Below are positions 11,636-16,398 of a stretch of DNA of 34,023 bases, piece by piece. Positions within the stretch are counted from its first letter, which is position 1; each line of letters opens with the position of its first letter. The position numbers and the translations under genes were made by a program. The DNA comes from Muribaculaceae bacterium (GTDB lineage: Bacteria > Bacteroidota > Bacteroidia > Bacteroidales > Muribaculaceae), in contig JAFTDD010000054.1 of assembly GCA_017454355.1 (NCBI GenBank), positions 1 through 34,023 on the forward strand, written 5' to 3'. The notes beneath the pieces were generated by a model. The model was not told where the DNA came from and ran no database searches. It worked only from the letters and a program-made list of their open reading frames with translations.

Positions 11636-13738
11636 TTATTTAGCCTCCGGCTTCAAGTACTTGTCCATCCACTTGAAGAACTCGCGCTGCCACAGGATTG
11701 AATTTTGTGGCTTGAGAATCCAGTGGTTCTCATCGGGGAAGAGCACCATGCGGGCGTCCAGGCCGCGCAGTTTGGCCGCGTTGAAGGCTTGGGTGGCTTG
11801 CGTGAACACGATGCGGTAGTCCAGTTCGCCGGCCGTAATCATGATGGGCGTGTCCCAGTTCTGAACATAGTTCTTGGGGTTGGCCTGGGTGTAACTCTTT
11901 TGAGCCACGGCGTTGTCCTTCTCCCAGAACGGGCCGCCGAGGTCCCAATTGACAAACCACATCTCTTCCGTCTCGAGATACTGTGCCTCGAGGTTGAAGA
12001 TGCCGGCGTGGGCCAGTAGGCATGCAAACCGCTTGTTGTGGTTGCCGGCCAGCCAGTAGACCGAGTAGCCGCCGTAACTGGCACCGGTGGCACCGATGTG
12101 CTCGCCGTCAATCCACGGCTTCTGTTTCATATAGTCCACAGCGCTCAGGTAGTCCTTCATGTTCTGGCCGCCGTAGTCACCCGAAATCTGGGCGTTCCAC
12201 TCGGTGCCGAAGCCCGGCAGGCCGCGGCGGTTGGGCGCAATCACCACATAGCCGTTGGCGGCCATCAGGCGGAAGTTCCAGCGGTAACTCCAGAACTGGC
12301 TCACCGGCGACTGCGGTCCACCCTCGCAGAAGAGGATTGCCGGATACTTCTTCGACGGGTCGAAGCCCGGCGGCAGCACCACCCATGTGGTCATCTGCTT
12401 GCCGTCGGTGGTGGGCACCATCTCCTTGGTGATGGTAATCTGGGCCAGTTTGCTCAGCAGTTCGTCGTTGACGTGGGTGAGCGCCTTTGCCTGTTGGCCG
12501 GCCTTGGCGAGCGTCACCTCGTTGGGCACGGCAAAGTTGTGGCGCAGCGTCAGCACGGCGTCGTCGGCCACCACGGCCAGCGAGGCGTGGTCCCATACGC
12601 CGGCGGCGATGGTGTCAATGGCCAGCGTCTCGGTGTCGAGGCGGAAGATGGGGGCTGTGCCCTGGTAGGGCGCGATAAAGAAGATGTGCTTGCCGTCGGG
12701 TGCCCATGCGATCTCGTCCACGCTATAGTCCCAGTCCTTGGTCAACTCGCGCTTGCCCGAGCCGTCGGCGTCCATGAGCATAATGCGGTTCTTGTCGGCC
12801 TCATAGCCGTCGTGCTCCATCGAGAGCCACGCCACCTGGCCCTGCTTGTTCACGATGGGATAGGTGTCATAGCCCATCATGCCCTCGGTGAGGTTCTCGG
12901 TCTTGCCGTCCTCGAGCGAGTAGCGGTATAGGTCGCTATTGGTCGAGATGGCGTACTCCATGCCGGTCTTCTTGCGGCACACGTAGATGAGCGACTTGCT
13001 GTCGGCACTCCACGCCAGGCTTTCCACGCCGCCCCACGGCTTCATCGGGCTCTCAAACGGCTCGCCATCGAGCACGTCCTTCACGTTGCTCACCGCGTTG
13101 CCGTCCCAGTCGGCCACAAAGGGGTGAGGCACCTCGCTCACCCACTCGTCCCAATGCTTGTACATCAGGTCGTCGATGATACGGGCATTGGCTTTGTCGA
13201 GGTCGGGATGGTGGTCTTGGGCCGTCTTGCCATACTTCACCTGGCTGATGAGCACCACATGCTTCTCGTCGGGCGAGAAGACAAAGCCGTCCACGCCGCC
13301 CTCAAGTTCGGTGACGCACTTGCGGCCGCTGCCGTCGGCGTTCATCACCCAGAGTTGAGTGCGCTCGCCTTGCTTGTAGGTGAACGCGATGCGCTTGCCA
13401 CCATCAATCCACGTGGCGCCACCCTCGCTCGAGGCAGTGTTGGTAATGGTGATGTCGTCACTGCCGTCGGCGTTCATCACGTGCAACTCACAGTTGCCTT
13501 TGTTCTGCTCCACGCTGTAATAGGTCACGCCGTAAAGCACCTTGCTGCCATCGGGCGAGAGTTGCACTCCGCCCACTCTGCCCAGAGAGTTGAGCAACTC
13601 GGGAGTAAACCGGCCGTTCTCAACCGTCACATCGGGCTTGCCGATGATTGGGGCGTCGGCGTTCTCGTCGCCGCAGCCGGTTGCCGCGGCGCTCAGGGCT
13701 ATCGCTGTAGCCATCATCATTGTCTTGTAGATGTTCAT
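11636..13738 (-). CDS. S9 family (prolyl oligopeptidase/acylaminoacyl-peptidase type) serine peptidase lipoprotein
   Basis: 700 residues. A lipoprotein signal ends in AATGC (Cys22). The N-terminal half (about 50-420) has WD40-like PD40 beta-propeller repeats, seen as SPDGSKVLY, SPDEKHVVL, SADSKSLIY and APDGKHIFF. The C-terminal alpha/beta-hydrolase domain carries Ser554 in GASYGG, Asp640 in GELDYR and His672 in ENHW, all intact. The family removes dipeptides or acyl-amino acids from oligopeptides; in asaccharolytic relatives such as Porphyromonas similar enzymes feed peptide uptake. A membrane-anchored periplasmic or surface peptidase is the likely role. It begins the leftward unit with the phosphodiesterase. 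No clear promoter was found in the 190 bp upstream. Confidence 0.9.
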   Translation of the reverse strand: MNIYKTMMMATAIALSAAATGCGDENADAPIIGKPDVTVENGRFTPELLNSLGRVGGVQLSPDGSKVLYGVTYYSVEQNKGNCELHVMNADGSDDITITNTASSEGGATWIDGGKRIAFTYKQGERTQLWVMNADGSGRKCVTELEGGVDGFVFSPDEKHVVLISQVKYGKTAQDHHPDLDKANARIIDDLMYKHWDEWVSEVPHPFVADWDGNAVSNVKDVLDGEPFESPMKPWGGVESLAWSADSKSLIYVCRKKTGMEYAISTNSDLYRYSLEDGKTENLTEGMMGYDTYPIVNKQGQVAWLSMEHDGYEADKNRIMLMDADGSGKRELTKDWDYSVDEIAWAPDGKHIFFIAPYQGTAPIFRLDTETLAIDTIAAGVWDHASLAVVADDAVLTLRHNFAVPNEVTLAKAGQQAKALTHVNDELLSKLAQITITKEMVPTTDGKQMTTWVVLPPGFDPSKKYPAILFCEGGPQSPVSQFWSYRWNFRLMAANGYVVIAPNRRGLPGFGTEWNAQISGDYGGQNMKDYLSAVDYMKQKPWIDGEHIGATGASYGGYSVYWLAGNHNKRFACLLAHAGIFNLEAQYLETEEMWFVNWDLGGPFWEKDNAVAQKSYTQANPKNYVQNWDTPIMITAGELDYRIVFTQATQAFNAAKLRGLDARMVLFPDENHWILKPQNSILWQREFFKWMDKYLKPEAK

Positions 13739-13906
13739 TATATATTATTATTTATTGATATTCACTGGGGGGTAGACAAAACGGCATGGCTGTTTTGCGC
13801 ACCACTCTTTATATTGTCACATGAGACATTTGGAGTACAAATTTCGGAATAATTTCTCGGATTTTAGCAGTTTTTGTTAATAAATCGCATTTTTTTTGTT
13901 ATTTTT

Positions 13907-13937
13907 TTTGCCAGTTCAAGATTTTGGCTTACCTTTG
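13907..13937 (+). promoter_or_regulatory. Strong consensus promoter in the 13.7-14.6 kb intergenic region
   Basis: TTTG (13907-13910), exactly 19 bp, then TACCTTTG (13930-13937): one of the best Bacteroidetes promoter matches in the window. The predicted start is near 13944, followed by a leader of about 155 nt. Confidence 0.82.
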
Positions 13938-13943
13938 CAGCGT

Positions 13944-14097
13944 CAAAACGAAAGCACGGGAGGGGAGAAAACCACGGGCTGACATTCTGACAAGAGAACT
14001 TTGACAAGGAATGATTTTTGCACTCCGGAGTGTAACTAACGTGGAGAGCCCGATTCAGGGCCGTCTACATTATTTATTAACTTAACGATTTACTATT
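13944..14097 (+). promoter_or_regulatory. Structured 5' leader of the small transcription unit
   Basis: The leader is GC-richer than its surroundings. It contains the perfect palindrome CACTCCGGAGTG (14021-14032), enclosed by a long-range pairing of CGGGCT (about 13975-13980) with AGCCCG (about 14047-14052). Its last 30 nt are AU-rich, as usual before Bacteroidetes start codons. I cannot match it to a named riboswitch or leader family from memory; it could equally be the 5' part of a non-coding RNA. Confidence 0.45.
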
Positions 14098-14214
14098 ATG
14101 GCAAGTCAAGCAAAAATCAGCACAGACAAGCGACTGTACGTTCTGCCGCGGCATGCCTATCACCCGATGGGAACAACACGCCGCACGGGCTATATCGCAC
14201 AGCCCACTCATTGA
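14098..14214 (+). CDS. Candidate 38-residue small protein or leader peptide
   Basis: An ATG-started ORF of 38 codons, too short for ordinary gene finding, beginning MASQAKISTDKRLYV and ending GYIAQPTH before TGA. It is basic and rich in His, Arg and Tyr (RHAYHPMGTTRRTGY), with no signal peptide or membrane segment. It follows a consensus promoter and an AU-rich initiation region, and lies upstream of hairpins and an intrinsic terminator, so it has its own transcription unit. I do not recognise the sequence. Alternatives are an attenuation-type leader peptide for the downstream operon, or an untranslated RNA in which the ORF is accidental. Coding status is inference from context. Confidence 0.45.
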   Translation: MASQAKISTDKRLYVLPRHAYHPMGTTRRTGYIAQPTH

Positions 14215-14239
14215 GAGAGAAGCAACATTGTCTAACAAC

Positions 14240-14306
14240 CTCCCCGGCGCCTCGTCATTGAGGCTCAAGGGGAGCATAGAGCATCACTCCGCTCGCGGAG
14301 TCGCTC
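14240..14306 (+). other. Two consecutive stem-loops in the 3' part of the small transcript
   Basis: CTCCCC (14240-14245) pairs with GGGGAG (14269-14274) around an inner GCCTC/GAGGC stem with a GTCATT loop. Directly after it, ACTCCGC-TC-GCGGAGT (14286-14301) is extended by GAGC/GCTC (14279-14282, 14303-14306). Both precede the terminator, which points to a compact structured 3' region. Confidence 0.6.
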
Positions 14307-14352
14307 TCAAAAAAAGAAACCTCATTTTTATTCATACTATTTTTCCTAAGGG

Positions 14353-14382
14353 GTGCCTCGCAGTGATGCGCGGCACTTTTTT
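14353..14382 (+). terminator. Intrinsic terminator of the small transcription unit
   Basis: GTGCC (14353-14357) pairs with GGCAC (14372-14376), with an inner GC/GC pairing, and is followed at once by six T residues. It closes a transcript of about 440 nt starting near 13944. Confidence 0.8.
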
Positions 14383-14394
14383 CTTGCCAAAAAA

Positions 14395-14452
14395 CATGTC
14401 TATACTCTGCGGTAAGTGCTTTTTTTTGACACTTACCGCAGAGTATAGCATG
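14395..14452. repeat. Perfect 19-bp inverted repeat with T-rich loop
   Basis: CTATACTCTGCGGTAAGTG (14400-14418) and its exact complement (14430-14448) enclose an 11-nt loop of mostly T. Four further outer pairs (CATG/CATG) form after one bulged T. It lies just behind the terminator and before the ECF-type promoter. It could be a bidirectional transcription barrier, a protein-binding site or the remains of a small mobile repeat; no second copy is in the window. Confidence 0.9.
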
Positions 14453-14497
14453 GTTTTGTCGCCGCGATAATTTATTTTCGAAAAAAATGGGGTGGAC

Positions 14498-14525
14498 TGC
14501 AACCTGCGGGTGGTTTCACTGCGTC
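14498..14525 (+). promoter_or_regulatory. ECF-sigma-type promoter before the membrane protein-sigma factor operon
   Basis: TGCAACC (14498-14504) and CGTC (14522-14525) are 17 bp apart, the AAC/CGTC arrangement common to many ECF sigma promoters. It lies about 50 bp upstream of the operon whose second gene is an ECF sigma factor, so autoregulation is likely. The specific match to this sigma is inference. Confidence 0.6.
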
Positions 14526-14576
14526 TAATACACAAAAAGCAAAATCTCATCCGATAAAAATTAAACAACCGATATT

Positions 14577-15281
14577 ATGGCAAAGAAACTTTTCTTCCTA
14601 GTTATCATGGCGTTGACGCTCCTCACGGCCGGAGCGCAGCAGAGCGCCGACACTACCCTCAACGTCACCGACGGCAGCAGCCATGTTACAATGGTGGGCG
14701 ACACCTTGCTTGCCACCGATGGCACCGACACCGTGCGCGTCGTAGGCGCCGACTGGGCCGCACTTGTCAAAGGCCTGCTCAGCGACACCGTTATCAACCG
14801 CAGTCATGATGACTCCTATGACAAAGATTACCTTATAGTAACCCGCGTGGCAAATGTGGCGCGCCTGGCAGTCATGTGGATTGGACTCGTGCTGCTCGCC
14901 TTGATTATCGCGGTGGTATTCTATAAGAATCGCCGCAACAAGTATCGCATGATTGAGAAGGCCATCGACAACAACTACCAGTTGCCTCCCGAGTTGCTCG
15001 GCCAGTTGCCGCAGCAAGTTCAGCAACCGGCCGCTGTCACGCCGCCGCCGTTCACCGCCGGCAGTCAGGCCACCGGTATGCCGCCCGTGCCTAACGCCTT
15101 GCCGTCCTACGACGGCGCGGTGAAACTCATCGCCATCGGCGCCGCGGTAATGCTCTTCTTTGCGGTGCTCGATGTCACACCGATGGTAGCCCTGAGCGCG
15201 ATTCCTCTCTTTCTGGGCATCGGCAAAGCGTTCCTAACGTGGCAAACCCGCCAAGACCTCACCCGAGGTGGTAACAATTAA
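14577..15281 (+). CDS. Three-helix membrane protein upstream of an ECF sigma factor (resembles DUF6249)
   Basis: 234 residues. A signal peptide (about 1-20) is followed by a small extracytoplasmic segment rich in Thr and Asp (21-95), a transmembrane helix (96-116), a cytoplasmic KNRRNKYRMIEKAIDN stretch with a Pro/Gln-rich linker (117-178), and two further helices (181-200, 203-220). The KYRMIEKAI pattern after a membrane helix resembles the DUF6249 proteins often found beside sigma factors in Bacteroidales; this is a recollection, not a search result. As first gene behind an ECF-type promoter and directly upstream of the sigma gene, it may sense envelope state or anchor the regulatory module. 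Biochemical function unknown. Confidence 0.75.
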   Translation: MAKKLFFLVIMALTLLTAGAQQSADTTLNVTDGSSHVTMVGDTLLATDGTDTVRVVGADWAALVKGLLSDTVINRSHDDSYDKDYLIVTRVANVARLAVMWIGLVLLALIIAVVFYKNRRNKYRMIEKAIDNNYQLPPELLGQLPQQVQQPAAVTPPPFTAGSQATGMPPVPNALPSYDGAVKLIAIGAAVMLFFAVLDVTPMVALSAIPLFLGIGKAFLTWQTRQDLTRGGNN

Positions 15282-15301
15282 TTCATCTGTGGAGTTGTGT
15301 G

Positions 15302-15322
15302 CAAAGCGGCCTCGCCGCTTTG
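15302..15322 (+). promoter_or_regulatory. Intercistronic hairpin before the sigma factor gene
   Basis: CAAAGCGGC-CTC-GCCGCTTTG is a perfect 9-bp stem with a 3-nt loop, 25 bp upstream of the sigma factor ATG. It could lower readthrough or translation of the sigma relative to the membrane protein, or mark an RNA-processing site. Confidence 0.65.
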
Positions 15323-15347
15323 TGCCCCGAATAACAACTGACCGGTG

Positions 15348-15869
15348 ATGACGCGGATTGAAGAACTGCAGTTGGTGGCGCGGTGTGTAATCGCCGATGA
15401 CCGCGAGGCCTTCGGGCGGCTGGTGGAAGCCTACCAGCAGCCGCTGCGCCGCTTCCTGCTGCACTTGACCCTGGGCGACAACGACCTGACAGACGACTTG
15501 GCGCAAGAAACCTTTGTCAAAGCCTATCTGGCCGTGCGTGGCTTCAAGGCGCTGGCGGGCTTCAAGACGTGGCTTTTCCGCATCGCCTACAACGAGTTCT
15601 ATAGCCACACTCGCCGCCAACACGAGGATACGCTCGACGACGATGCGCCCGATGGAGCCTTAGGCACTGTCGAGCAACCTACCGAGGCGCGCCTGAGCGT
15701 AGAGCAGGCAATGACCGCATTGAGCGACAACGAGCGCGCCGTGGTCTCGCTCTTCTACATCCAAGACCTGCCGCTTGCCAAGGTGGCGTCAATCACCGGT
15801 ATGCCCGAGGGCACGGTCAAGAGCCATCTGCACCGTGCCAAGCAGAAAATGTCAAAACTGCTGAGTTAG
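15348..15869 (+). CDS. RNA polymerase ECF sigma factor (sigma-70 family)
   Basis: 173 residues from the ATG at 15348 (a GTG one codon earlier is possible). Sigma region 2 spans about 20-90, with DDLAQETFVKAY and the FKTWLFRIAYNEFYSHTRR -10-recognition segment. A short acidic linker (92-115) leads to region 4 (about 120-173), with LSDNERAVVSLFYIQDLP and the helix-turn-helix SITGMPEGTVKSHLHRAK. The length and the two-domain layout are those of a minimal ECF factor. It lies between a membrane protein and a small two-TM protein that could act as its anti-sigma. The AAC/CGTC promoter at 14498-14525 suggests it drives its own operon. Confidence 0.93.
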   Translation: MTRIEELQLVARCVIADDREAFGRLVEAYQQPLRRFLLHLTLGDNDLTDDLAQETFVKAYLAVRGFKALAGFKTWLFRIAYNEFYSHTRRQHEDTLDDDAPDGALGTVEQPTEARLSVEQAMTALSDNERAVVSLFYIQDLPLAKVASITGMPEGTVKSHLHRAKQKMSKLLS

Positions 15870-15901
15870 AGATCGGTAATTAGTAACTCAGGTTTATAAT
15901 G

Positions 15902-16039
15902 TAAAAGTGATTGATAGTCATGCTAATAATAATCCGTTACTTGTAGGGGCAGAATTTATTCTGCCCGCCTGCCGCAAACGGGCAGAATAAATTCTGCCCC
16001 TACATCTCTCAATGTTATCAATTTATCTACTATAGAAAC
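15902..16039 (-). repeat. MITE-like palindromic element, copy 1 (inverted)
   Basis: The core, 15942-16004, is a perfect inverted repeat with 26-bp arms (TGTAGGGGCAGAATTTATTC and on) and an 11-nt loop, CCTGCCGCAAA. Each arm is itself a palindrome, GGGCAGAAT-TT-ATTCTGCCC. Both flanks match, in reverse orientation, the flanks of the copy at 33.6 kb: 15902-15935 corresponds to the TTATTATTATCATGACTATC side and 16005-16039 to the GTTTYTAAAGCAGATAAATT side. It fills the gap between the sigma factor and the small membrane protein genes. Confidence 0.9.
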
Positions 16040-16083
16040 CTAAATTAGTAATTGGTGATTAGTTGTTAGAAATTATTAATACT

Positions 16084-16398
16084 ATGGACTCAAATAATAT
16101 CGACCCCATTGACGAGCAACTGCGTCAGTTGCTGCATGAGCAGGCTCCCGACGTCAAGCCTAACCCGTGGTTCACCCACCGTGTGCTGCACCGCTTGCCG
16201 GCACGACGCGCCGCCGGGTGGGTCGGTCACGCAATGTACGTCGTGGCCATCGTCATCCTCGCCGGCATGTGGCTATGGATGGCCGGAGACATCAGCGTCG
16301 CGCGTGTGATCACTGTGGGCGACCTGCTGCAATATGTCGCCGTGTTCTCTGTTACCCTCGCTTTGCTGCTGAGCCGCCACCGCGATTTGTCGCTGTGA
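16084..16398 (+). CDS. Small two-TM protein, possible anti-sigma partner
   Basis: 104 residues from the ATG at 16084; the upstream TTG reading is not needed. A soluble N-terminus (1-48), with IDEQLRQLLHEQAPDVKPNPWFTHRVL, is followed by two membrane helices (about 51-68 and 80-96) and a short RHRDLSL tail. No zinc-finger CxxC/HxxxC anti-sigma motif is visible. It is the last gene after the ECF sigma factor, the usual place for a membrane anti-sigma, and the N-terminal segment faces the cytoplasm if both helices span. A MITE-like element separates it from the sigma gene, so coupling is only at the transcript level. The anti-sigma role is inference from position. Confidence 0.7.
   Translation: MDSNNIDPIDEQLRQLLHEQAPDVKPNPWFTHRVLHRLPARRAAGWVGHAMYVVAIVILAGMWLWMAGDISVARVITVGDLLQYVAVFSVTLALLLSRHRDLSL

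Follow-up and report, generated by a model that had tools for sequence, protein, structure and literature searches.

What kind of gene occupies the 475 bp at 13907–14382 of a Muribaculaceae contig, where every signal for a small transcript appears to follow the last in close order? The window, which is the whole 34,023-bp stretch analysed here, is a single contig from the incomplete 2.7-Mb genome (G000, 89% complete) of a gut or rumen bacterium; Muribaculaceae are common gut bacteria. The unit lies between a dpp5-like peptidase gene on the opposite strand (11636–13738; NF053518, 1016.9 bits) and three genes in a row (14577–16398) for a DUF6249 protein, an ECF sigma factor and a DUF5056-like protein, the last with a score below its family's cut-off; these three are probably a sigma factor and its regulators. 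The initial annotation read the unit as self-contained and as a source of either a small RNA or a small-protein mRNA. The comparison below upholds this reading and suggests that it is both. We think it probable, though well short of certain, that this is a dual-function RNA gene, whose transcript of about 13944–14382 would encode a 38-residue protein and end in a small RNA (sRNA) module of the Bacteroidales type, an arrangement that has so far been found in one Bacteroidales family only.

Layout of the unit

A promoter, a leader, a 38-codon ORF, two stem-loops and a terminator had been annotated in this interval, and all are present. The promoter, TTTG-N19-TACCTTTG, is at 13907–13937 on the + strand (TTTG at 13907–13910, a 19-nt spacer, and TACCTTTG at 13930–13937), and is assigned to the sigma-ABfr (housekeeping) type because it fits the Bacteroidetes promoter form TTTG-N19-TAnnTTTG (for the canonical sigma-ABfr promoter see PMC7366714). 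Matches to sigma-70 in a general scan were at shuffle level, with 2 found and 1.9 expected. The RNA would start near 13944, and the 5' leader that follows (13944–14097, + strand) has a sequence that is kept only as far as the closest relative; it includes CACTCCGGAGTG at 14021–14032 and a degenerate sigma54-type site, GG-N10-GC, at 14007–14022 (+ strand; GG at 14008–14009 and GC at 14020–14021), which fits a relaxed pattern only. The ORF, 38 codons and a stop at 14098–14214 (+ strand), has the predicted product MASQAKISTDKRLYVLPRHAYHPMGTTRRTGYIAQPTH and is called on family conservation and dN/dS. Behind it the fold gives two stem-loops on the + strand, 14240–14274 and 14279–14306, and these are followed by the single-stranded conserved seed of the sRNA module at 14320–14349 (+ strand; core TATTCATACTATTTTTCCTAA at 14329–14349) and by the 3' half of that module, an intrinsic terminator hairpin with its T-run at 14348–14382 (+ strand), which is supported by a covarying stem and a covariance model and is not in the list produced by a simple terminator scan. 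Taken whole, RNA 13944–14382 has a better fold than 100 of 100 dinucleotide shuffles (z −4.16).

A relative that is 96% identical over the locus (G016) has no difference in the 117 nt of the ORF and 1 in the 61 nt at 14323–14383, at position 14383 itself, and it differs at 6 of 154 positions in the leader and 7 of 108 in the stretch between ORF and element; the ORF and 3' element together differ from the leader and intervening stretch in this respect with a Fisher P of 0.01. The first stem-loop has one compensatory change, C14240-G14274 to U-A in G016 (pairing judged by eye), and comparison with related loci gave no covariation evidence for the second, 14279–14306. Within the RNA the U-rich stretch 14320–14349, to which the initial annotation gave no special attention, is the best-conserved part, and the two GC-rich stems are less conserved. 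The ORF and the 3' element are each kept across genera.

The 38-residue protein

A first tblastn search over 149 genomes of the family returned weak matches, and reading 13 of these loci revealed the family pattern LP.HAYHPN...R.GYIA.P (written also LPxHAYHPN..RRxGYIAxP). Twelve columns are invariant in an alignment of 23 ORF sequences, and in divergent members the G of GYIA is replaced by A or P; the window protein, HAYHPMGTTRRTGYIAQP, is a short variant that has HPMG in common with the protein of locus L147. The profile finds the ORF, one copy each, in 50 of the 101 genus genomes, and in 4 of 295 genomes of the order, of which one is the window's own and the other three are weak; built from the 23 sequences, it finds it in 32 of 247 family genomes (5 of 30 genera) (related genomes are not independent samples in these or any of the counts below). 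The codons do show a synonymous bias, as had been suggested for a genuine ORF: third-position changes predominate, and dN/dS is 0.13 among seven g47 sequences and 0.22 among six rumen sequences. Judged by these ratios, the ORF is shown to be under purifying selection in two clades, and by this selection and its invariant residues it is a real, conserved family of coding small-protein genes.

Neither the protein nor the RNA was recognised in the initial annotation, and database searches bear this out. The 38-residue product has no Pfam, NCBIfam or PHROGs family at E up to 1, the 23-sequence profile found no sequence in the PDB at E up to 1, viral contigs held no relative of the protein, and plasmids gave no match to 13700–14600. 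Neither for the window nor for 13 related loci did Rfam 15 give a match at the gathering score. Its matches at E up to 10 were set aside as sub-threshold; in the window they are mostly microRNA families on an inverted repeat at 14400–14448, and in the relatives they are chance matches that include BTnc231 (21.4 bits against a cut-off of 80.4), the only Bacteroides sRNA family in Rfam to be matched at that level, in a set that may not include models of FopS and GibS.

The 3' sRNA module

The last ~60 nt of the unit are, by comparison of loci, a real sRNA module, in which an invariant single-stranded TTTATTCATACTATTTTT..CCTA is followed by a covarying terminator stem. The core at 14329–14349 reappears nearly unaltered in other loci, TTTATTCATACTA and TTTTTCCTA are invariant across 16 aligned loci, and the window's copy is without the CCCTAA part that is present in most other joined copies. 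Covariation, which the initial annotation had raised for the stems, is found in the terminator, where 7 of 12 pairs are changed on both sides among the 16 loci; the stem-loops of the window's leader, with one close relative only to compare, gave no such support. In the terminator stem 91.1% of cells pair, against 40–57% when the partner is slid by 1–3 columns; its covariation score is matched by 0 of 500 shuffles and the count of double-changed pairs alone by 91 of 500, in a test that is favoured by the structure having been derived from the same alignment.

The covariance model (R1) matches the window at 14306–14382 with an E value of 6e-11. Under strict filters that lose weak matches, it finds the module in 60 of the 101 genus genomes at E up to 0.01 (54 of them below 1e-6), in 36 of 247 family genomes and 9 of 30 genera (two of these by weak matches only), and in 6 of 295 order genomes, with a strong match only in the window's own. 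The 18-mer TTTATTCATACTATTTTT is also found in 22 viral contigs (raw count). The window's genome has a single copy of the module, at up to 3 mismatches, and some genus members carry several copies or paralogous classes; the weaker matches, of which 16 loci were read, belong to a paralogous class B (CTTTAAATCTACTTTATTCATACTATATTTTTTAG...) and class C (CAAAGTTGGAAATATTAATACTATTCATCCTAA...). We note that an operator-like motif, GACCCATTTGGGTATTG.GTATGTC.TGACATGACT, closely precedes the promoter in several class B copies (L215, L216, L217 and L218), and that L216 and L218 have two copies of it each.

In many members of the genus the module stands alone as a gene of about 70 nt directly behind its own promoter, with the layout TTG-N19-TAnnTTTGCA, then ACCTTAAATCAAACTTTTATTCATACTATTTTT(T)CCTAGGGCACC...GTGCTTTTTTT; the TAnnTTTG ends no more than 6 nt from the RNA start in 35 of 41 such copies. 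The predicted folds of the stand-alone RNA and of 14315–14382 are alike, a single-stranded 5' stretch and then the terminator hairpin. The element also terminates RNAs with no recognisable ORF at three g45 loci, one g52 locus and in four genus members. These forms bear on the simplest alternative, that the unit is a plain small-protein mRNA whose conserved 3' end serves in cis only, in stability, termination or protein binding, with no trans-acting RNA. The target tests described below, which were negative or weak for start codons, susC genes and the ORF's own mRNA, are in its favour, but a cis-only 3' UTR element would not be expected to occur as a promoter-driven gene without an ORF or at the end of ORF-less RNAs, and we consider this alternative unlikely.

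Joined and separate arrangements

Among the 101 genus genomes the ORF is present in 50, a strong element in 54, and both in 30. The joined form accounts for 6 of the 30 (G000, which is the window's, G012, G013, G016, G206 and G255), with the element on the same strand 73–299 nt behind the ORF, and G243 is joined as well, with a weak element. In the other 24 they are apart, so joining is not necessary for either part to exist. By their coordinates the parts are joined in all nine g47 genomes that have both, and the same holds for the sole g51 genome (G086) and the sole g29 genome (G064) with both; the joined form thus occurs in four genera, with separate genes elsewhere. In g49 one of the four genomes with the ORF has a weak element, on a different contig. 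Several ORFs that are split from the element or lack it have a short hairpin terminator of their own behind them (by eye).

At seven g47 loci the layout predicts a joined transcript of 704–802 nt. The ORF and the last ~55 nt of these units are conserved, the leader blocks and one inner block partly so, and the rest mostly not. The inner block, GAATTTTCCAGTCGT ... TTGGAAGATTTT and ATCCTCCTATCC, lies behind the ORF in most of the seven (L048–L054).

The 24 genomes with separate genes lend some credit to the idea that ORF and sRNA are independent neighbours in the window too, where the sRNA would have its own promoter and merely supply the next terminator to the ORF mRNA. However, the 114 nt between the ORF and the module core contain no TAnnTTTG promoter, against the position of that element within 6 nt of 35 of the 41 stand-alone copies, and sequence, fold and terminator scan revealed no other + strand terminator between ORF and module in the window; two unconnected genes are, in our judgement, a distinctly improbable account of the unit.

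Proposed function and possible targets

As a dual-function RNA gene, the unit would give a single transcript, from about 13944 to 14382, with ORF and module on it together; this transcript would be translated into the conserved 38-residue protein and would end in the unstructured U-rich seed and the terminator hairpin. The module would act in trans, as part of the long RNA or once processed from it. Its seed, UUAUUCAUACU, is complementary to AGUAUGAAUAA, a start codon with its surroundings, and may pair over the start codons of target mRNAs and block their translation in the manner of GibS and FopS in Bacteroides; such pairing in trans would be expected to affect mRNAs whose starts are of the AGUAUGAA type. 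The protein would have a separate role in the same response, and this response would be under sigma54 control in many relatives, as groES is.

A search of 10 genomes for the seed complement gave 35 places, which include the sRNAs themselves and their paralogues; 30 of them had loci, and 14 of these were read. Four of the 14 resemble start codons of longer ORFs, each in one genome only (L194 and L211 in G141, L213 in G009 and L209 in G015), and no start-codon target is common to the 10 genomes when the 17-nt seed complement is allowed up to 2 mismatches. The susC genes were examined as a set of 46 matches from three genomes, of which 30 had loci, 27 were taken (three low-scoring ones being dropped) and 26 were usable. 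As a group their starts pair with the seed no better than they do with shuffled versions of it (mean rank 0.45 of 26). Six of the 26 rank at 0.065 or better (binomial P 0.006), a cut that was chosen after the ranks had been seen and a group of which five are similar paralogues.

Pairing of the sRNA with the ORF's own mRNA is also at chance for the group (mean rank 0.42 of 24), with 4 of 24 ranking at 0.053 or better. This has a bearing on a type I toxin-antitoxin pair, a small toxic peptide with a regulatory RNA, which might be proposed from the frequent presence of small ORF and small RNA in the same genome (30 of 101); in spite of the four better-ranking cases the group result speaks against it, as do the same-strand position of both parts in the joined form and the peptides, which by eye have no long hydrophobic segment and no apparent membrane segment, and we regard such a pair as very improbable.

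Relation to known RNAs

Few dual-function RNAs are known. SgrS/SgrT combines a small protein and a base-pairing segment in one RNA, as does VcdRP of Vibrio cholerae (PMC8672173), and the same combination is proposed here, in a unit with no known sequence relation to either; by its layout the unit may be a dual-function RNA and would work like one, and it belongs to no sequence family tested. It is set apart from both, and from known dual-function RNAs in general, because its halves are joined or split among close relatives, many of which have them as separate genes, and it is known from sequence alone. An sRNA from the 3' UTR of the glutamine synthetase mRNA in Enterobacteriaceae (PMC9731577) shares its 3' end and terminator with a coding RNA, as the module would here, but that mRNA encodes a full enzyme, unlike the 38-codon ORF.

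The characterised Bacteroides sRNAs act at start codons (PMC7366714, PMC11697453). GibS and FopS of B. thetaiotaomicron likewise have an unstructured conserved stretch and then a terminator, and the layout of FopS (PMC11697453) includes paralogues, as here; FopS is a multicopy family with housekeeping-type promoters; promoters of that type precede most stand-alone copies of the module, and some genus members have several copies or paralogous classes of it where the window's genome has one. Start-codon pairing has been shown for those sRNAs, whereas here there is only a start-codon-like seed complement, and the FopS authors excluded putative short ORFs, whereas the present module can join a coding ORF. 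A search of the literature on Bacteroidales and Muribaculaceae sRNAs, small proteins and dual-function RNAs, with most subscription journals and supplements outside its scope, found no title or beginning of an abstract that describes this locus, and by the same measure no sRNA study of Muribaculaceae.

Promoters and leaders of the ORF

In g47 the leader block TTTGGCAAGG..TTGC has the form of a sigma54 promoter, for which the consensus is TGGCAC-N5-7-TTGCT (PMC12316311). A strict pattern, TGGCA[CA]-N5-TTG[CTA], occurs in 28 of 58 ORF leaders, where 100 first-order Markov controls average 0.31 and never exceed 2; the count is inflated by relatedness, yet the spacer letters and the distance to the ATG differ between clades, and one of the 28, the L096 site at −257, is probably due to chance. 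The 58 are the distinct leaders among 78 loci, a set in which several places occur twice, and more divergent ORFs were missed by the motif used. The strict pattern is found in 0 of 59 reverse-complemented leaders, in 0 of 41 regions upstream of stand-alone sRNA copies, and on neither strand of the 34-kb window. Many of the 30 leaders without it have TAnnTTTG 80–110 nt before the ATG. The rpoN gene is present in 98 of the 101 genus genomes, the window's included.

The sigma54-type site of the window consists of GG-N10-GC only, without TGGCA, and its GG is at −90 from the ATG compared with −91 in L048, L049 and L052, one base off the g47 offset. This relaxed pattern occurs in 4 of 31 leaders, with 0.71 expected and a maximum of 4 in 200 trials, a weak count in which two of the four leaders, those of the window and L071, are near-identical. 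Since the site is degenerate, the promoter at 13907 is likely the main one in the window.

A hairpin before the start codon covaries in g47, g51 and g29 (44 of 45 pairs, matched by 0 of 5000 shuffles, in a tally of 9 distinct sequences among 11 rows with the register set by hand). We note that in the g47 leaders L020–L023, L025–L027 and L053, pairing between CCCATA and TATGGG, around the start codon, could mask it; this form draws on the same CCC as the covarying upstream hairpin, with which it competes, is the minimum fold in 1 of 7 folded leaders (L053), and is a possible translational switch in g47. A pairing of the g47 leader UUUUAGGG with the CCCUAA of the element was considered and dropped, as it fails in L029 and in the window.

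Gene neighbours

The neighbours of the ORF in 27 loci, some of them shortened by contig ends, fall into groups (names given from sequence); one has gltA-like, reductase-like and flavoprotein genes with a tricorn-like protease further out, and among the others is a group with short-chain dehydrogenase- and sulfatase-like genes. The ORF is directly upstream of groES-groEL in two genomes, G021 and G024 (L158 and L155; genes likewise named from sequence); both have a sigma54-type site in front of the ORF, and G021 has a further one in front of groES. The groES and grpE genes of B. thetaiotaomicron are sigma54-dependent (PMC12316311). The ORFs resemble the sigma54-controlled chaperone genes of Bacteroidota described there in that TGGCAC-type sites precede many of them and two copies adjoin groES-groEL, but the site in the window is degenerate.

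A broader reading, which we put forward tentatively and as possible rather than probable, is that of a modular regulator, made up of a multicopy sRNA family and a family-specific small protein from the sigma54 chaperone-type response, which are separate or form one dual-function RNA according to the species. If this is true, a gene for a small protein can fuse with an existing sRNA gene to give a dual-function RNA, or the two can split again, and the fused form would lack the sRNA's own promoter. Across about 100 related genomes the halves can be examined in both states, as a single gene and as two, which allows fusion versus fission to be tested. For Muribaculaceae the comparison also defines an sRNA family, brings to light a small-protein family that had escaped annotation, and makes a link to sigma54 likely.

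The initial annotation proposed a regulatory link to the ECF sigma genes downstream. These come next in the window and in its nearest relative L071, but in the other 25 of the 27 loci there are no ECF genes beside the ORF, and the link was rejected; as the unit moreover closes with a terminator, there is scarcely any likelihood that it is a leader peptide or attenuator for the ECF sigma module.

Two inverted repeats accompany this part of the window. Just downstream of the unit, at 14400–14448, a perfect 19-bp inverted repeat, CTATACTCTGCGGTAAGTG, encloses an 11-nt T-rich loop, and no second copy of it occurs in the window when up to 3 mismatches are allowed. The other, TGTAGGGGCAGAATTTATTCTGCCC ... 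GGGCAGAATAAATTCTGCCCCTACA, was noticed by eye at 15945–16005 between the ECF sigma gene and the one that follows it, and in its sequence looks like a small repeat element.
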